From Solimonas fluminis (GTDB lineage Bacteria; Pseudomonadota; Gammaproteobacteria; Nevskiales; Nevskiaceae), in assembly GCF_002930645.1 (NCBI RefSeq), contig NZ_PSNW01000003.1, forward strand, positions 1 through 64,000: a stretch of 64,000 bases of DNA, in the 5' to 3' direction. Of the stretch, positions 6,997 through 57,377 are shown piece by piece. Below the pieces are notes generated by a model, which searched no databases, was not told where the DNA came from, and was given only the letters and a program-made list of their open reading frames with translations. The translations under genes were made by a program, and so were the position numbers. Each line of letters starts with the position of its first letter. The first letter of the stretch is position 1.

Positions 6997-7012
6997 TCCC
7001 GGCGAGGCCCTG

Positions 7013-8212
7013 TCAACGCACCACCACCGGCAGTGTCTCCCAACCGCGCACGGTCGAGGTCGGCGACAGCACGGCTGTCTCCAGGTCCACGTCCCATTCC
7101 GGGAAGCGCTTCAGGAACTCGTCCAGCGCGGTGCGGCCTTCCAGTCGCGCCAGCACGGCACCGACACAGGTGTGGATGCCGTAGCCGAAGCTCAGGTGCG
7201 AACGCGCCGGGCGGTGGATGTTGAAGGTCTCGCCGTTCTCGAAGCGGCGCTCGTCGCGGTTGGCCGCGCCCACCAGGAACATCATCGCGCTGCCCTTGGG
7301 CACGGTCTGGCCGTGCACCACCACGTCGCGCGCGACGTAGCGCGACATGTGCGGCGCCGGCGGCTCGAAGCGCAGGATCTCCTCCACCGCCGCCGGTATC
7401 AGCGCGCGGTTCTCGGCGATCTGGCGGCGCTGCTCGGGATGCTCCGCCAGCACCTTGGCCATCCAGCCGATGAAGCGGTTGGTGGTCTCGTTGCCGGCGC
7501 CGGCGAGGACGTTGACCAGGGTCAGCACCTCGTCGCGGTCGAGCTTGCGCATGGTGCCGGTCTCGTCCTTGAACTCGGTGGTGAGCAGCTCCGTCATCAC
7601 GTCGTCCGCGGGATTCTTCGCGCGCCACTCGATGTAGTCCTCGAAACCCTCGCCGATGTAGGCCGTATCACCGGCATCCATCTTCTGTCCGACCTCGGTG
7701 CGCATCACCGAGTCGACGCGCTCGCGCACCTTCTGATGATCCTGCTCGGGGATGCCCAGCAGGGAGCCGATGATGTGCATCGGCATCTGCCCGCCGAACT
7801 GCTCGATGATGTCGAAGCGGCCGCTGCCCACCAGCGGATCGAGCGAGCGCACGCAGGCCTCGCGCACCTTGGACTCCAGCGAGAGCATGCGCTTGGGCGT
7901 GAACATCCGCTGCAGCAGCTGGCGGTACATGGTGTGCACCGGCGGGTCGGTGAAGATCAGCACGCCCGGCGGGAATTCCGCTTCGGCCTTGATGATCTCC
8001 AGGATCGCACCCTTGCCGGAGATGAAGGTCTCGCGGTCCTGCAGGCCGCGCTCCACATCCTCGAAGCGGCTCACCGCATAGAAGTCGTGCTCCTGGTTGT
8101 AGTAGAGCGGCGCTTCCTCGCGCAGGCGGCGGAAGACCGGATAGGGATCGGTGGAAATCTCGGGCTGGTAGGGGTCGAAGTAGACCGCCCCGGCCTGGCT
8201 GCTGCTGTCCAT
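7013..8212 (-). CDS. Cytochrome P450
   Basis: 399 residues, a soluble bacterial class I P450. The heme motif FGYGIHTCVG carries the ligand Cys349. The I-helix AGAGNETTNR holds the oxygen-activating acid/Thr pair, and EEILR supplies the ExxR salt bridge. It needs an external ferredoxin and reductase; none is adjacent, so the ferredoxin at 38233 or one elsewhere must serve. The ATG at 8212 follows AGGAGCT; a 20-codon upstream extension would run into the operator at 8237 and is rejected. It is divergent from the molybdenum hydroxylase operon and shares an operator type with xdhC, hinting that both act on one substrate or its product. Confidence 0.93.
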   Translation of the reverse strand: MDSSSQAGAVYFDPYQPEISTDPYPVFRRLREEAPLYYNQEHDFYAVSRFEDVERGLQDRETFISGKGAILEIIKAEAEFPPGVLIFTDPPVHTMYRQLLQRMFTPKRMLSLESKVREACVRSLDPLVGSGRFDIIEQFGGQMPMHIIGSLLGIPEQDHQKVRERVDSVMRTEVGQKMDAGDTAYIGEGFEDYIEWRAKNPADDVMTELLTTEFKDETGTMRKLDRDEVLTLVNVLAGAGNETTNRFIGWMAKVLAEHPEQRRQIAENRALIPAAVEEILRFEPPAPHMSRYVARDVVVHGQTVPKGSAMMFLVGAANRDERRFENGETFNIHRPARSHLSFGYGIHTCVGAVLARLEGRTALDEFLKRFPEWDVDLETAVLSPTSTVRGWETLPVVVR

Positions 8213-39423: not shown

Positions 39424-40737
39424 CTAGCGGCGCCTGAACGTGATGGGCAGGCGCTCGATCGAGCGCGTGGCCACGGTCGGCAGGTAGCCGATCTCGCTGG
39501 CCGGAATGGCCAGCCGGATGTCCGCCATGCGGCGGCTGATCTCGCGGGCCGCCACCTTGATCTCCATGCGCGACAGCGAGGCGCCGACGCAGCGGTGCAC
39601 GCCCACGCCGAAGGCGACGTGCCTGGCGATGTTGGCGCGGTTGATGTCGAAGTCGCGCGGGCAGGCGAACTGGCTCTCGTCGTCGTTGCCCGAGGCGTAG
39701 AGCACCAGCAGGTGCGCATGGGCCGGCAGCTTCACGCCGCCCAGTTCCACCTCCTTCGTGGTCATCTTGGCCAGGCCGCGCACCGGCGGCTCGATGCGCA
39801 GCAGTTCCTCGACGAAGCGGTTCAGCAGGCGGTCGTCGTCCACCGACTCCTGCAGCGTCTTCGCCACCTCCGGGCGGGTCGCCAGCACGAACAGCAGGTT
39901 GCCGATGGCGGTGGCCGTGGTGTCGTTGCCGGCGATGACCAGGGCCCGGATCAGCGACACCGCCTCGCCGAACTCCAGCACGCTGCCGTCGTCCAGCCTG
40001 GCGTGGACGATGTCGGAGATCATGTCCTCGCGCGGCTGTTCCTGTCGCGCCTTCATCTCGCCGATGATGAAGTTCTGCAGCTCGCAGATCAGCGCGGCGT
40101 TCTCGCGCATCTGGTCGCGGTCCTGCATCTTGGAAATCTGCGCGGTGACGGCACCCGACCACTGCTGGATCTTGGCGGCGTTGAACTCGGCGATGCCCAG
40201 CTGCTCGCAGATCACGCGGATGGTCAACGGCACGGCGAAGTCCCTGACGCCATCCACCACCTGGCCGTTGGCCCCCTTCTCGGCCAGCTTCCCGATCAGC
40301 TCGACGATGATCGCGGTGATGCCCGGCTCCAGCGTGGCCACCCGGTGCGCGGTGAAGGCCTTCTCCAGCAGGCGGCGCACGCGGGTATGTCCCGGCGGGT
40401 CGTCCTTGATGGCGTCGGCGAAGAAACCGCCGCCGTCCCGCTCCAGGATCTGCTTGAACTCCTCGAAGAAGCCGTTGGCGTACATCGCGGCATAGCCGTG
40501 CTTGTCCGAATAGGTCTGGGGATCGCGCAGCACGGTGACGATATCGTCGTAGCGCGACACCAGCCACATGTTCAGCTTGGCATCGAAGTGCACCGGCGAT
40601 TCGCTGCGCAGCGCCTGGTAGAAGGCGTTGGGCTGCGCCAGGACGTCCTTCAGCGACGCGTCCTTCAGCGCGGCGGCGCCGCTGCCGGTGAAGGGGCACT
40701 TGCCCGCGGTGGGGGATACTGCCTGGGCCTGTTCCAT
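39424..40737 (-). CDS. Cytochrome P450
   Basis: 437 residues. The heme motif FGVGVHRCVG contains Cys383. The I-helix AGNDTTATA and the ExxR of VEELLR are present. The N-terminal KCPFTG and YSDKHGYAAMYANG lack a membrane anchor, so it is soluble. It needs the [2Fe-2S] ferredoxin encoded two genes downstream, a class I system. The AraC-type gene ends 31 bases upstream, so regulator and P450 are probably one transcript. The CYP family is not recognised beyond general resemblance to steroid/terpene P450s of proteobacteria. Confidence 0.94.
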   Translation of the reverse strand: MEQAQAVSPTAGKCPFTGSGAAALKDASLKDVLAQPNAFYQALRSESPVHFDAKLNMWLVSRYDDIVTVLRDPQTYSDKHGYAAMYANGFFEEFKQILERDGGGFFADAIKDDPPGHTRVRRLLEKAFTAHRVATLEPGITAIIVELIGKLAEKGANGQVVDGVRDFAVPLTIRVICEQLGIAEFNAAKIQQWSGAVTAQISKMQDRDQMRENAALICELQNFIIGEMKARQEQPREDMISDIVHARLDDGSVLEFGEAVSLIRALVIAGNDTTATAIGNLLFVLATRPEVAKTLQESVDDDRLLNRFVEELLRIEPPVRGLAKMTTKEVELGGVKLPAHAHLLVLYASGNDDESQFACPRDFDINRANIARHVAFGVGVHRCVGASLSRMEIKVAAREISRRMADIRLAIPASEIGYLPTVATRSIERLPITFRRR

Positions 40738-51264: not shown

Positions 51265-52278
51265 TCAGAGACCTTGCTCCTCCCTGATCATCGACTGCAC
51301 GATGCGGCGAGCGCGAATGGCGGCGCGGTCAGCCTTGACGTTGACGTAGCGCCGGGGCGCCTCGTCCTCATCGAGACAGCGCTGCACCGTCTCGAGCACC
51401 GCGGAGTCGCGGTCGGCCATCAAATGGAACACCTCGGCCAGCCGCGGTCCCGCATCGGCGGCGACCGCAGTGCCCCGCCAGGCCAGCTGCAGGAAAACGT
51501 GCGTGGTCCGCTCGGTTTCCGGGGTGAATCCGTGCAAGCGCACGAGCTCGAGCAGGGGCCCATCGGCACCCCCGATCGTATAGGTTTGGCGGTGCAGGCC
51601 CGGCGTCACGAAGGTGCCGGTCTCGCGGCGGCTGAACGTCTCGGCACTGTCCAGGCCCGATACCGCCGACTCCCAGGGCGCGAGCGGCGCCTGGGGCAGT
51701 TCGCGTGCATACGACACCGAGACCTCGGAGATCTCCACCTCCTCGGGCGGCGGCAGCGCCTCGATACCGGGCGGCACCATCTCGGCGTGCATCTCGAATA
51801 CGTTGGTCAGGTCCAGGTAGTGCTCGTGCAGCAGCAGGAAGCCCGCCCCGACGCGACGACGCTCGCCCGTTGAGGACCAGTCCCCCTCCGATGCCAGCTC
51901 CGGCGTCGCGGCCGGCGGACGCAGCCGCGCACTACCTGGCGTTCCCATCCACAACCACACGAACGGCCCGCTCACATGGACCGGGAAAGCACGCACGCGC
52001 GCACCCAGCGGCGGCTTGTCCTGCGAGGGGACCCGAACACAGGTGCCATCGGGGTCGTAGGTGCAGCCGTGATAGCCGCAGATGATGCAGTCGCCGTCAC
52101 GGGAACCGGCCGAAAGCGGATAGGGTCGATGCGCGCAGCGATCCTCCAGGGCGGCGATCGAGCCGTCGGCCAATCGGTAGAGCACCACGGGGGTTCCCAG
52201 GATGCGGCGGGCGAGGAAGTCGTCGCCGACCTCGTCGATGGTGGCGGCGACATACCAGCATTCGCGGGGGTAGCTCAT
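51265..52278 (-). CDS. Rieske oxygenase, VanA/DdmC-like, with His ligand replaced by Asn
   Basis: 337 residues of the PaO/VanA/dicamba-monooxygenase type. The Rieske cluster ligands are Cys48-x-His50 and Cys67-x2-His70 (CAHRP ... CGYHG). In DdmC the iron segment reads N-x5-H-x4-H; here it is H153-YLDLT-N159-VFEM-H164, so the first iron His and the preceding Asn seem to be exchanged. The late acidic ligand (MADRDSAVL) is present. It normally O-demethylates or hydroxylates small molecules and needs a phthalate-type reductase. The only such reductase here is the domain fused to the P450 upstream; the ATG overlaps that gene's stop by 4 bases. Confidence 0.9.
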   Translation of the reverse strand: MSYPRECWYVAATIDEVGDDFLARRILGTPVVLYRLADGSIAALEDRCAHRPYPLSAGSRDGDCIICGYHGCTYDPDGTCVRVPSQDKPPLGARVRAFPVHVSGPFVWLWMGTPGSARLRPPAATPELASEGDWSSTGERRRVGAGFLLLHEHYLDLTNVFEMHAEMVPPGIEALPPPEEVEISEVSVSYARELPQAPLAPWESAVSGLDSAETFSRRETGTFVTPGLHRQTYTIGGADGPLLELVRLHGFTPETERTTHVFLQLAWRGTAVAADAGPRLAEVFHLMADRDSAVLETVQRCLDEDEAPRRYVNVKADRAAIRARRIVQSMIREEQGL

Positions 52279-54698
52279 AGGTCAAGCACCAACTTCTTCG
52301 ACAGGGACCGGGAGACGCAGGTCATGATCGTGTCGCCGCGCGCCCGATCCGCCTTGGACAATACGGAGTCACGGTGATCCGGCGTTCCCTCGATGACGTC
52401 GCACTCGCAGGTGGCGCAGATGCCCTCCATGCACGATCCGAGTACCTGGACACCGGCCTTCTCGACCGCTTCGAAGATCGACATGCCTTCGGGAACGCTC
52501 ACCGTGACACCCGAACGCGCGCACTCCACCTCGAAGCTGTCGAGTGCATCCGCGGGCGCCTCGACCACCTTGGCTGCGAAGCGCTCGAGGTGCAGGCTTC
52601 CTTCCGGCCACCCCGCACAGCCTTCCTCGACCGCGTCCATGAGCGCTCCTGACCCGCAGCAGTAGACCAGGGTGTCCGACCGCGGCGTGCCGAGCACCGA
52701 CGCGAGGTCGAATCGCTCGTTCTCGTCCCGGGGCCAGACCGTCACCCGGTCGTTGCTCTCGAGCGCGTCGAGGTAGGCCATGGACGCACGCGACCGACCG
52801 ACGTAGATCAGGCTCCACTCGGCGCCACGCGCCTCGGCCGCCTCGATCATCGCGAGGATCGGGGTGATGCCGATGCCGCCGGCGATGAACTGATAGCGCG
52901 GCGCAGAGACCAGCGGGAAGTGGTTGCGCGGGCCGCGCACGCGGACGGTTGCACCTTCCGCCAGCTTCTCGTGGACGTACGCCGACCCGCCCCTGCTGTT
53001 CGGGTCGCGGAGCACCCCGACCTTGAACGACGACGTGTCGGCGGTGCTGCCACACAAGGAATACTGCCGCGCCAGCGACGGGGTGAGAATCAGATCCACG
53101 TGGGCGCCGGCGGTCCACGCCGGCAGTTTGGCACCCGTCGGGTCGGTCAGGGTGAGCTCGACGACGCCGTCGGCCACGTCGCGACGAGCGGAAACCTTCA
53201 GCTCGACCTCGCGCTCCGCGGTGTTGCTGACCACGCCCTCACGGGAACCGCGCCGCGCGGGCTGAGGCGCGGTGGGCGGCTGCCCCACGCGGGTTCGACG
53301 GGCACCGGAGCGAGGCAGTTGCCCCTTCGGCGTCAGGCTGACCATCATCCTGGTGTAGCCCCGGACGAAGTTCGACTGCGCGAACTCCGGCTCCTCCACG
53401 ACCTCGATGTCGTCGAATCGCGCCAGCAGTTCCTCCCACAGGATCCGGAGTTGCAGCTCGGCCAGCCGGGCGCCCATGCAGCGGTGGACGCCGATGCCGA
53501 ACGAAAGGTGGTTGCGGGCGTTGGGCCGGCCGATGATGAAGTTGTCCGGATTCTCGAAGGTACGCTCGTCCCGGTTGGCCGAGGCGTACCACATGACGAC
53601 CTTGTCGCCCTTGCGGATGAACTGGCCGTTCAGGACGGTGTCCTTCTTGGCGACCCGGCGCATGTAGGCCAGCGGCGTCTGCCAGCGGATGATCTCGTGG
53701 ACCAGCTTGGGGATGAGCCCGGGGTCTGCCCTGAGGCGAGCGAACTCCTCGGGGAACTGGTTGAGCGCGTAGACACCACCCGACATCGAGTTGCGGGTGG
53801 TGTCGTTGCCACCGACGACCAGCAGGATGAGGTTGCCGAGAAACTCCATCGGCCGGTTGATCAGGTCCTTGGTGTCCTCCGACATCTGCATCAGGGTGAT
53901 CAGGTCGTAGCCGGGCTTCTCGCCGGCGGCCAGGCGGGCCGCCTTGTCGTGCCACAGGGCGCTGAAGCTCTTCGCCATGTCGGCAGAGGCTCGCCACATC
54001 TCGTCGACGTCACTCTGACCACCGGTCGTGGAGGCACCGGCAGCGGTCACCTCGGTCCAGTAGACGAGCTTGCGGCGCTGATCGTAGGGAAAGTCGAGCA
54101 GGGTGGCGAGCATTCGCGCAGTCAGTTCGATGCTGACCTTGTCCACCCAGTCGAACGTCTCGTTGAGCGGCAGACTATCGAGAACCTCTTGCACGCGCGA
54201 ACGAATCAGCCCCTCCAACTCGTCCAGGTTCTTGGGGGCAACGACACCCTGAACCGCAGCGCGCTGTTCGTCGTGGCGCGGCGGGTCCATGGCGATGAAC
54301 ATCTTGATGTCCAGCCCCTCCGGCGGGGTGCCGATGATGATCTGTGGCTCGGCCGAGAACGTCTCGAAGTCCTTGTCCACGGTGAGGATGTCCTCGTACC
54401 GGGTGACCGACCAGTACGGCCCGAAGGCACTGTCTGCCCGGAAGTGAACCGGCGCCTCGTCACGCAGTCGCTTGAAGTACGGACGCCACTGGCCTTGCCT
54501 CCACATGAACGGGTTGCTCATGTCGATGTCAGTCAATGCCACCTCGTCGACGTCGGGGATCTTCTTCTCGACGAAGACCGGCTGCTTGTCACCGAGCACG
54601 AACTGCCTGGCCTTCTGGAACATGTGCATTCCTTGGACCTGCCGTTCCATCGGGATGATGGCCTGGGCCTTGTTGATGACCTGATCAAGAAAGCTCAT
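52275..54698 (-). CDS. CYP153-like P450 fused to a phthalate-dioxygenase-type reductase (self-sufficient)
   Basis: 807 residues in one uninterrupted frame. Residues about 50-445 match CYP153A alkane hydroxylases: VDKDFETFSAEPQIIIG, AMDPPRHDEQRAAVQ, the I-helix GGNDTTRNSM near 295, HEIIRWQTPLAYMRR, and heme FGIGVHRCMG with Cys407. A Pro/Arg/Gly-rich linker of about 40 residues follows. Residues about 490-807 are an FMN/NADH/2Fe-2S reductase: RQYSLCGS near 543, AGGIGITP near 604, YCCGSG, and CMEGICATCECD near 757-766 with a last Cys near 793. So NADH can drive terminal or omega-hydroxylation of alkyl chains without separate partners. A GTG 12 bases upstream is an alternative start; GGTGG precedes the ATG. 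Confidence 0.93.
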   Translation of the reverse strand: MSFLDQVINKAQAIIPMERQVQGMHMFQKARQFVLGDKQPVFVEKKIPDVDEVALTDIDMSNPFMWRQGQWRPYFKRLRDEAPVHFRADSAFGPYWSVTRYEDILTVDKDFETFSAEPQIIIGTPPEGLDIKMFIAMDPPRHDEQRAAVQGVVAPKNLDELEGLIRSRVQEVLDSLPLNETFDWVDKVSIELTARMLATLLDFPYDQRRKLVYWTEVTAAGASTTGGQSDVDEMWRASADMAKSFSALWHDKAARLAAGEKPGYDLITLMQMSEDTKDLINRPMEFLGNLILLVVGGNDTTRNSMSGGVYALNQFPEEFARLRADPGLIPKLVHEIIRWQTPLAYMRRVAKKDTVLNGQFIRKGDKVVMWYASANRDERTFENPDNFIIGRPNARNHLSFGIGVHRCMGARLAELQLRILWEELLARFDDIEVVEEPEFAQSNFVRGYTRMMVSLTPKGQLPRSGARRTRVGQPPTAPQPARRGSREGVVSNTAEREVELKVSARRDVADGVVELTLTDPTGAKLPAWTAGAHVDLILTPSLARQYSLCGSTADTSSFKVGVLRDPNSRGGSAYVHEKLAEGATVRVRGPRNHFPLVSAPRYQFIAGGIGITPILAMIEAAEARGAEWSLIYVGRSRASMAYLDALESNDRVTVWPRDENERFDLASVLGTPRSDTLVYCCGSGALMDAVEEGCAGWPEGSLHLERFAAKVVEAPADALDSFEVECARSGVTVSVPEGMSIFEAVEKAGVQVLGSCMEGICATCECDVIEGTPDHRDSVLSKADRARGDTIMTCVSRSLSKKLVLDL

Positions 54699-54702
54699 GA
54701 CA

Positions 54703-54870
54703 TTAACCACCGTGCGGTGAATTCATGCGACGGCCAGAGCAATACGCAACGCTCTGTGCACAAGCCCCGCGTTCACCCGAGTCCCGGGCGCCGCGAAGCG
54801 GTGGCTGGGACGAGCGCTGGCCGTCGTTCCATCCTTTGGCCTGTTCGGCCGAAATTTCCAGAGTGCTCAT
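54703..54870 (-). CDS. Short 55-codon leader gene before the P450 fusion
   Basis: The frame begins ATGAGCACTCTG with GGGAGGGGATAACA just before it, the strongest ribosome site in the region, and ends at TAA 4 bases before the P450 ATG. The product starts MSTLEISAEQAKGWNDGQRS and then is rich in Arg, Ser, Gly and Pro with two Cys. No domain is recognised. Spacing suggests translational coupling: ribosomes finishing this frame can restart on the P450. It could also be a remnant of an older gene whose 3' part was lost. A real small protein is not proven. Confidence 0.55.
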   Translation of the reverse strand: MSTLEISAEQAKGWNDGQRSSQPPLRGARDSGERGACAQSVAYCSGRRMNSPHGG

Positions 54871-54932
54871 TGTTATCCCCTCCCACAGCGTTTGAACGGT
54901 GAGCGCAGCTTGCTTCAGTACCGATCCGGGCA

Positions 54933-54970
54933 ATGGTGATTTTCAGCCATTAAATGGTCATAATCAGCCA
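54933..54970. promoter_or_regulatory. Two tandem 17-bp sites for the divergent AraC-type regulator
   Basis: ATGGTGATTTTCAGCCA at 54933-54949 and ATGGTCATAATCAGCCA at 54954-54970 agree at 14 of 17 positions and lie 21 bases apart, two helical turns on one face of DNA. They sit in the 132-base region between the leader gene at 54870 and the regulator at 55003. Two direct sites of this size and phase are what AraC-family dimers usually bind. Confidence 0.75.
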
Positions 54971-56486: not shown

Positions 56487-57377
56487 TCAGCGCGCCGGGT
56501 GGATCGTCGGATGGATGGCGAAGCCGTGCTGCACCGCCAGCTCCTTGTGCTGCAGCTCGCGCTCGATCAGCCGGTAGACCTTGCCGTTGTTGTAGAACGG
56601 CGTCGCCGGGTACAGGTGATGGATCAGGTGGAAGTTCTGGTACTGCAGTACCGGCCCCATGAACCACTCGTGCCCCTGGCGGATCGTGGTGGCGCGGGTG
56701 AAGTTCTCCTCCTGCGACACGTCGTGCGGCACGTGCGGCAGCCAGAAGAAGCTGAAGCCCAGCGCCATCTGGATCAGGCGCGAGGGGATGAACCACAGCA
56801 TCAGCACTTCCATGCCGTAGCCGGCCCAGACCAGGGCCAGCAGAGCCGGCACGAACACCGCCGCGCGGCGCAGGCAGGCGTTGAGGAAGGGCCGGGACAC
56901 CTTGTCGCCGTTCTGCAGCGCGAAGACGAAGTAGAACAGGTCGATGAAGGCCCAGCGGAACGGCAGCGTCCACCACGCGCCGTGGAACACCTGGTCCGGG
57001 TCGCGCACGCCGTTGGCGAAGCGGTGATGCAGGATGTGCGCCCAGCGGAACATGCGCAGGTCCACGTAGGGCAGCACCACGTTCAGGCCCCATTGGCCGA
57101 TCAGGTCGTTGAGCCGGGTGTTCTTGGAGATGGAGCGGTGGATCGCGTCATGCGCCACGCTGAAGGCGATGTAGCCCACGCCGGTGTTCGACAGCATGCC
57201 CAGCCACAGCGGCCAGCGGCCGGTCCCGCAGAGCCAGTACACCGACAGGAAGCTCGTCACCAGCACGGCCCACAGGATCGCCGTCGGCCAGGCCAGCGGC
57301 GGCGCGGCGGTCAGTTGCCGGAAGCGCGCGGTCTGCTCGGGGTCCAGGCGGTCCAGCGATACGATCGTCTTGCTCAT
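56487..57377 (-). CDS. Fatty-acid-desaturase-like membrane di-iron hydroxylase/desaturase
   Basis: 296 residues with several membrane helices. The three histidine boxes of the family are present: H76-DAI-H80, H114-IL-H117-H118, and HLIHH near 248. They bind a di-iron centre. Members include acyl desaturases, xylene and alkane monooxygenases and beta-carotene hydroxylase-like proteins. A rubredoxin gene directly downstream favours an AlkB-like or desaturase reaction on alkyl chains. GGAGGAGA precedes the ATG at 57377. It is between tetR and rubredoxin on one strand. Substrate not determinable. Confidence 0.9.
   Translation of the reverse strand: MSKTIVSLDRLDPEQTARFRQLTAAPPLAWPTAILWAVLVTSFLSVYWLCGTGRWPLWLGMLSNTGVGYIAFSVAHDAIHRSISKNTRLNDLIGQWGLNVVLPYVDLRMFRWAHILHHRFANGVRDPDQVFHGAWWTLPFRWAFIDLFYFVFALQNGDKVSRPFLNACLRRAAVFVPALLALVWAGYGMEVLMLWFIPSRLIQMALGFSFFWLPHVPHDVSQEENFTRATTIRQGHEWFMGPVLQYQNFHLIHHLYPATPFYNNGKVYRLIERELQHKELAVQHGFAIHPTIHPAR

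Follow-up and report, generated by a model that had tools for sequence, protein, structure and literature searches.

Does the 64,000-nucleotide window of Solimonas fluminis analysed here (contig NZ_PSNW01000003.1, positions 1 to 64,000) encode a natural cytochrome P450 of the CYP153A subfamily that carries its own reductase, and how did a gammaproteobacterium come to hold such a gene? One frame on the minus strand, from an ATG at 54698 to a TGA at 52277-52275, comprises 807 codons plus the stop, with zero internal stops. The first-pass annotation of this DNA had described a P450 closely resembling CYP153A, naturally fused in this frame to a complete phthalate-type reductase, and both statements held when they were checked by alignment and against a set of 33 full-length fusions. 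The reading that we favour, with a probability of roughly 0.82, is that the product would be a catalytically self-sufficient CYP153A monooxygenase, of a single origin in Actinomycetota, and that Solimonas acquired its gene later by transfer; there the gene lies beside an AraC-family gene.

The best sequence match of the fusion in the PDB was the Marinobacter aquaeolei CYP153A (5fyf), over residues 6-458 (E = 2.4e-212), and the Foldseek identities were 70% to this enzyme, 69-70% to CYP153A71 and 52% to P450pyr (CYP153A7). In P450 nomenclature, members of a family share more than 40% identity and members of a subfamily more than 55%. The identity of the fusion lies above the threshold for CYP153A, and the haem-thiolate, ExxR and I-helix motifs are present in 33/33 fusions; the separate class I ferredoxin reductase that is usual for CYP153A is missing near the fusion loci, a trait that is not the basis of the naming. 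The best alignment was not to CYP116 and no stop was found between the domains in any of the 33 fusions, both points having been checked specifically. Residues G296, L343 and V445 of the fusion correspond, by hand count on the alignment, to unchanged G307, L354 and V456 of the M. aquaeolei enzyme, which are positions mutated in that protein.

The Pfam matches in the fusion were P450, Fer2 and a weak NAD_binding_1 (24.6 bits; cut-off 22), while the flavin mononucleotide (FMN) domain matched no Pfam model and was assigned by end-to-end alignment with 2pia and 6kbh. The whole reductase part aligns end to end with 6kbh, 6laa (CYP116B46), 2pia (phthalate dioxygenase reductase) and 7ylr, and the intact self-sufficient P450s 6kbh and 6laa match the fusion from about residue 77 to the C-terminus. 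By architecture, that is the P450-FMN-NAD(P)H-[2Fe-2S] order, the fusion belongs to class VII. The aligned nucleotide-site segment reads GRSRASMAYLD in the fusion, GRSRTSMAFLD in 6kbh, TRDPEGTAFFD in 2pia, VRSRTSLIFVD in 6laa and GRSRELMAFLP in 7ylr; a preference for NADPH is reported for CYP116B enzymes (PMC11889516). As read from these alignments, a motif of the GRSRASMAYLD type does not settle the choice between NADH, which the first-pass annotation had named, and NADPH for the fusion. An AlphaFold2 model had a mean predicted local distance difference test score (pLDDT) of 70.2 and a predicted template modelling score (pTM) of 0.46, with residues 464-492 below a pLDDT of 50, and its Foldseek superposition on 6kbh gave a root-mean-square deviation of 26 Å; being too weak for more, the model was read for folds and for the disordered linker only.

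A scan of a species-genome collection yielded 31 full-length fusions among 80 loci kept of 111 confirmed places. It used two peptide patterns, both within the P450, so that fusions with other P450s were invisible to it and the fusion count is a lower bound. Thirty of these fusions came from Actinomycetota and one from a Solimonas metagenome-assembled genome (MAG); they were distributed among Gordonia (n = 7), Nocardioides (n = 6), Tsukamurella (n = 4), Williamsia (n = 4) and Rhodococcus/Rhodococcoides (n = 4), with one each in Marmoricola, Actinomycetospora, Jongsikchunia, Klenkia and a Nocardioidaceae MAG, and all were 67-82% identical to the S. fluminis fusion. The set of 33 (31 Actinomycetota and two Solimonas) was completed by S. 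fluminis itself and by a Tsukamurella tyrosinosolvens plasmid, whose fusion was 77% identical. The L024 record of that strain, which was deposited as a plasmid of 416 kb, carries the fusion and Rieske genes downstream of nrdE. The second Solimonas genome held a full-length fusion of 79% identity, and full fusions were found in 2/4 genomes of the genus and 2/85 of the order. Even samples of the class (369 genomes) and of the phylum (398 genomes), searched at E ≤ 1e-225, gave no fusion other than that of S. fluminis. In the family of Nocardioides sp. SLBN-35, 13/294 genomes gave a match from residue 1-8 to residue 807, with an internal stop in 1/13.

Conservation across the 33 fusions followed the domains. 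The haem cysteine, the ExxR motif, the I-helix D-T pair, Y546, S547, the nucleotide-site glycines and the four cluster cysteines were invariant, R544 was Arg in 30/33 and Lys in 3/33, and C680 was Cys in 30/33. Mean identity to the S. fluminis residue was highest in the P450 (0.83, residues 51-457), followed by the reductase domains (0.71-0.78) and residues 1-50 (0.67), and fell to 0.31 in the linker (458-497), which also varied in length. The ratio of nonsynonymous to synonymous substitution rates between S. fluminis and nine relatives was 0.12-0.19 for the P450, 0.20-0.28 for the reductase and 0.35-1.16 for the linker (one pair saturated), values indicating that the fusion is under purifying selection.

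Both domains point to the same history. In the P450 tree (99 rows) all 33 fusions fell into a single clade (100/99), whose sister was an unfused CYP153 of Skermania sp. ID1734 (L057, 81% identical; 100/99); another unfused CYP153 from Skermania (L117, 74%; 100/97) branched next. In the reductase tree (46 rows, 13 of them non-fusion and only two CYP116-like) the fusions again formed one clade (100/98), followed by a stand-alone Skermania reductase (L116, 65%; 98/84) and by a Mycobacterium paragordonae reductase (97/89), with the two CYP116-like rows elsewhere. Immediately after the Skermania reductase gene comes a Rieske gene whose product is 55% identical to the S. fluminis Rieske protein, and immediately after the M. 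paragordonae gene (L108) comes one of 42% identity. One fusion event would suffice for both trees: most likely, a CYP153A gene was joined in frame, once, in Actinomycetota, to the reductase gene of a reductase-Rieske pair. Within the fusions, the P450 of S. fluminis groups with that of Gordonia asplenii (98/87), and its Rieske protein is closest to that of G. asplenii (80%); on these two grounds the fusion would later have been transferred to Solimonas, presumably in that direction, from a Gordonia-like donor. The GC content is 60-70% across the locus and 67-73% in the background.

A search of 249 Mycobacteriales genomes for the reductase gave 30 loci, four of which were CYP153 fusions. Eighteen of the 26 others had a Rieske-family gene inside the 1.5-kb flanks and eight had none in the stretch. 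The six best-scoring (L134-L136 and L138-L140) carried it directly downstream (43-56%), and the other 12 Rieske-bearing loci had a more distant one (28-32%) upstream. At L134-L136 an unfused P450, the reductase and the Rieske gene follow one another in the same order as at the fusion loci; the P450 of L134 is CYP125/CYP124-like, and its Rieske protein has Ser for one Cys of the cluster motif.

The ferredoxin reductase gene usual beside an unfused CYP153 is missing beside the fusions. A class I ferredoxin reductase was detected by tblastn within about 8 kb at 0/33 fusion loci versus 44/49 unfused CYP153 loci, the query being the gene that follows the unfused Rhodococcus erythropolis CYP153 (L067) and the flanks being shorter at L028 (1.8 kb upstream), L030 (1.4 kb downstream) and L035 (6.0 kb upstream and 2.6 kb downstream). 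A loose ferredoxin-motif count ran in the same direction (45/49 unfused versus 5/33 fusion loci). The S. fluminis genome held no other CYP153, its next-best P450 being 32% identical. Two more P450-like genes lie in the window on the minus strand, at 7007-8143 (31% identical to the CYP153 domain, in an alignment that crosses one TGA) and at 39508-40632 (29%).

In the S. fluminis enzyme, two electrons would pass from NAD(P)H to FMN, and from there, one at a time, to the C-terminal [2Fe-2S] domain and across the flexible tether to the N-terminal CYP153A haem, which would insert one atom of O2 at the terminal carbon of a medium-chain alkane or fatty acid. Terminal hydroxylation of such compounds is suggested by the 70% identity and the three conserved positions, and the divergent AraC-family protein presumably regulates the fusion. 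Engineered chimeras of the M. aquaeolei CYP153A with a phthalate-family oxygenase reductase (PFOR) are reported to be active, with a coupling of 41% for dodecanoic acid and 32% for octane (PMC3815936).

Several points weigh against the favoured reading. Three of the nine actinobacterial fusion genomes searched hold an unfused CYP153A (65-68%) elsewhere, so that partner genes may exist elsewhere in those genomes. The reductase tree is thinly sampled outside the fusions and leaves the Solimonas rows unresolved, those nearest to S. fluminis being from Nocardioides, and a single gain is favoured over a loss in Skermania by parsimony, which is not proof. The modest AlphaFold2 model says nothing reliable about domain contacts. 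The presumed substrate comes from the subfamily, and the literature searches yielded neither a biochemical characterisation nor activity data for a natural CYP153 fusion in full-text articles, with most subscription papers and all preprints outside their scope. According to PMC3815936, octanoic acid was no substrate for the PFOR chimera, whose coupling was below that of the chimera with cytochrome P450 reductase; fusion alone is thus no guarantee of efficiency. The neighbourhood offers little metabolic context: besides the Rieske gene and a TetR-type gene (at least 60% identity, downstream in 15/31 Actinomycetota fusion loci), one neighbour family recurs in more than six loci (10 loci; a short-chain dehydrogenase/reductase by the annotation of L024), and most families are unannotated.

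The Rieske gene raises the question of a second partner. It lies directly after the fusion in 19/33 loci (S. fluminis and 18/32 others). Outside S. fluminis, the fusion stop falls within ATGA or GTGA in 18/18 of these loci, and in 17/18 the overlapping start opens a Rieske frame of full length (335-349 aa); that of Gordonia spumicola (L054, 10418-11467) has a stop at codon 19, is otherwise intact and was left out of the 18 intact sequences. No Rieske gene was found by tblastn within 8 kb downstream in 14/33 loci, and no homologue at E ≤ 1e-40 anywhere in 6/6 tested genomes of such loci, which argues that the Rieske protein is dispensable to the P450. These counts, like those of the ferredoxin reductase, were taken from tblastn; rough gene calling by GC position overlooks the Rieske genes in L030 and L051.

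The S. fluminis Rieske protein keeps the cluster motif (CAHR ... CGYH), the second mononuclear-iron His (H164) and the Asp (D291), and by alignment it lacks a complete two-His-one-carboxylate iron site. The first iron His is replaced by Asn in 18/18 intact fusion-linked proteins (YLDLTN/YLDLSN ... MH). At the same position L116 and L134-L136 have Asp, M. paragordonae has Tyr, and His is found in L138-L140 as well as in six relatives that are more distant. The substitution suggests altered chemistry and does not show inactivity. Two Rieske-like proteins encoded beside related reductases (L118:7605-8597 and L119:7838-8842) have SGYS/CGYS for CGYH and have lost the second iron His, while they keep the first; they are possible non-oxygenase relatives of the Rieske proteins.

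Under the alternative that survives best, the fused reductase would supply electrons to its own P450 in cis and also, in trans, to the Rieske protein of the overlapping gene. We regard it as tentative, with a chance somewhat short of even. The recurrent position and overlap of the Rieske gene speak for it, as do the nearest stand-alone reductases (L116, L134-L136, L138-L140 and L108), all directly followed by a Rieske gene of the same family, and the gene order already present at L134-L136; the 14 fusions with no Rieske gene downstream, the genomes with no homologue, the broken frame of G. spumicola and the lost canonical ligand, with which the protein may no longer be an oxygenase, speak against it. 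A more specific form, in which one reductase would have two partners, the CYP153A haem in cis and, in trans, a translationally coupled Rieske protein whose Asn/His/Asp site has an altered or purely electron-transferring function, appears slightly more doubtful still. If the shared use of the reductase were true, the operon would be a P450-Rieske tandem, for example for successive oxidation steps, related to the unfused P450-reductase-Rieske gene rows of Mycobacteriales.

It is also conceivable, and in our view improbable, that the domains are co-translated and work apart, the reductase mainly for the Rieske protein and the P450 on other ferredoxins. The nearest relatives of the reductase do adjoin Rieske genes, and the M. 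aquaeolei CYP153A is reported to work with the foreign proteins CamA and CamB (PMC3815936), but the fusion, with its reductase residues retained, is kept in the 14 loci that have no nearby Rieske gene, and the class I reductase is absent at 33/33 loci, copies elsewhere in the genomes not having been sought.

Far less probable is that the fusion is a CYP116B-type (P450RhF) enzyme wrongly assigned to CYP153. The domain order is identical, and Foldseek ranks 6kbh first and 6laa seventh, at whole-chain identities of 34% and 30%. The P450 domain, however, is 27-30% identical to the P450 parts of two proteins that we call CYP116-like (our own naming, from their annotation as P450/oxidoreductase), below the 40% of a family and against 70% to CYP153A, and the reductase is 42-43% identical to the same two proteins, against 65% to the Rieske-paired Skermania reductase; it groups in the tree with the Rieske-paired stand-alone reductases, apart from the CYP116-like rows. 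CYP116 membership was rejected on identity and tree, and the reductase tree gives no support to CYP116B as the reductase donor. As its sister genes are a Skermania CYP153 and a Rieske-paired reductase, we conclude that the fusion was not made by a P450 swap in a CYP116B enzyme, and these comparisons indicate that its origin is separate from that of CYP116B. The weakest alternative, an assembly or sequencing artefact joining two adjacent genes or a chimeric contig, is ruled out by the recurrence of the full-length architecture in the second Solimonas genome, on the Tsukamurella plasmid and at the 31 scanned loci, in all 33 copies, from isolates, MAGs and one complete plasmid, each in its own record and with no internal stop.

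The S. fluminis gene is thus a real and conserved CYP153A fusion, probably self-sufficient. The suggestion of the first-pass annotation that it might be a new class of self-sufficient hydroxylase did not stand, since Gordonia examples are in print and the domains follow the order known from class VII CYP116B. According to section 9 of a 2022 review (PMC8918992), Nie et al. (2014) recognised in silico three natural CYP153s that also carry a ferredoxin-reductase domain and, C-terminally, a ferredoxin domain, the strains being Gordonia polyisoprenivorans VH2, G. araii NBRC 100433 and G. polyisoprenivorans NBRC 16320; by that citation the architecture was already known, and the last two strains are loci L028 and L044 of our set. 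These fusions agree with that of S. fluminis in family and, as described in the review, in architecture. They differ from it in that S. fluminis is a gammaproteobacterium whose fusion lies divergent from an AraC gene; the coupled Rieske gene is shared with G. araii and lacking in G. polyisoprenivorans (L044). The S. fluminis fusion extends the architecture noted in Gordonia to another phylum. The newest point is the Rieske gene that overlaps the fusion stop codon in 19/33 loci, one of them interrupted; one literature search aimed at the Rieske gene of fusion loci found nothing.

Class VII CYP116B enzymes (P450RhF, CYP116B46) share the single-chain order and all four cofactor sites with the fusion, whose P450 is of another family and whose reductase is on a separate branch. 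The M. aquaeolei CYP153A has a closely similar haem domain with the same three residues but, unlike the fusion, works with a separate ferredoxin and reductase. The engineered chimeras described in PMC3815936 resemble the natural fusion in design (a CYP153A haem domain and a PFOR-type reductase); they are artificial and carry the P450RhF or CYP116B3 reductase, whereas the natural reductase lies on a different branch from the CYP116-like ones. The phthalate dioxygenase reductase or VanB-type proteins are homologous end to end with the fused reductase (2pia) and, unlike it, stand alone and have Rieske oxygenases as partners.

Hydroxylation of unactivated terminal carbons is the reaction of CYP153A enzymes, and hand-made fusions of CYP153A to a reductase took effort; the same fusion arose by evolution and has persisted in dozens of genomes, and its linkers, varied in length and sequence, form a natural test set for which linker or interface couples well. 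The unfused Skermania CYP153 and reductase-Rieske pair, set against the fusions, make a before-and-after pair in which the effect of fusion is testable with natural sequences, and the coupled Rieske protein, whose iron site is altered, is a partner that calls for explanation and can be tested.

A second type of natural P450-reductase fusion was seen in Mycobacteriales (L148:1498-3837 on the minus strand, L141, L144 and L149), with a reductase 57-60% identical to that of S. fluminis. The P450 part lies in the same frame, and its identity in L148, L141 and L144 is 29-33% both to CYP153 and to a CYP116-like P450, and 44% over a short piece cut at the contig end in L149; L148, the only one of the four translated through, gives 779 aa. 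A 728-aa protein encoded on a plasmid of Streptomyces fungicidicus (L111:2281-4467) and annotated as a P450 also has a reductase domain, 49% identical, and LumU is described in PMC12746152 as a single-chain P450 of 81 kDa.

Table 1. Features of the fusion locus in the S. fluminis window.
Feature	Coordinates	Strand	Basis or remark
CYP153A P450 - linker - FMN/NAD(P)H/[2Fe-2S] reductase fusion, 807 aa	52275..54698	-	Pfam, PDB sequence search, 33 full-length fusions including S. fluminis
CYP153A haem domain, residues 1-458; D299-T300, ExxR E335-R338, haem ligand C407	53325..54698	-	70% identity to M. aquaeolei CYP153A; residues invariant in 33/33
Variable linker, residues 459-497	53208..53324	-	Low identity, varying length, low pLDDT, substitution-rate ratio
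FMN-binding reductase domain, residues 498-600 (R544-x-Y546-S547)	52899..53207	-	Alignment to 2pia and 6kbh
NAD(P)H-binding domain, residues 601-715 (GGIGITP 607-613; C681-G682)	52554..52898	-	Pfam and alignment; G607, G608, G610, C681 and G682 in 33/33
Plant-type [2Fe-2S] domain, residues 716-807 (C756, C761, C764, C794)	52278..52553	-	Pfam Fer2; four cysteines in 33/33
VanA-type Rieske protein, 337 aa; start overlaps fusion stop by 4 nt; Asn159 for first mononuclear-iron His	51265..52278	-	Pfam Rieske and VanA_C
55-codon open reading frame (former 'leader gene')	54703..54870	-	Not conserved
Putative AraC operator; 18-nt direct repeat, 21-nt spacing	54932..54970		Repeat finder; between divergent genes
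Divergent AraC-family regulator, 337 aa	55003..56016	+	Pfam Arabinose_bd and HTH_18

The neighbours that had been proposed for the fusion at first reading (Table 1) fared differently. The Rieske gene and the AraC regulator were found where they had been placed, whereas the leader gene was not upheld: its 55-codon open reading frame (ORF) exists, but among the 161 sequence records compared it matched only itself (the window and the locus in its own genome), and it is absent from the intergenic region of the second Solimonas, so that it is probably not part of the fusion system.

The second Solimonas has an AraC gene 79% identical and in the same position, and AraC homologues of 43% and 37% identity stand divergent to unfused proteobacterial CYP153s (L070 and L072); a single weak AraC match (26%, L055) was found among the Actinomycetota fusion loci. 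The NCBIfam matches of the S. fluminis protein were QhpR (104 bits), GliR (98 bits) and CypR (66 bits), and an identity as CypR was rejected because the other two score higher and all lie below cut-off. Both half-sites of the candidate operator are visible in the alignment with the second Solimonas, in which the repeat finder gave none for that region. On the far side, the AraC gene is adjoined by a gene for a fatty-acid-desaturase-family protein on the minus strand (about 56487-57377), of which the longest ORF (to 58103) probably overstates the N-terminus.

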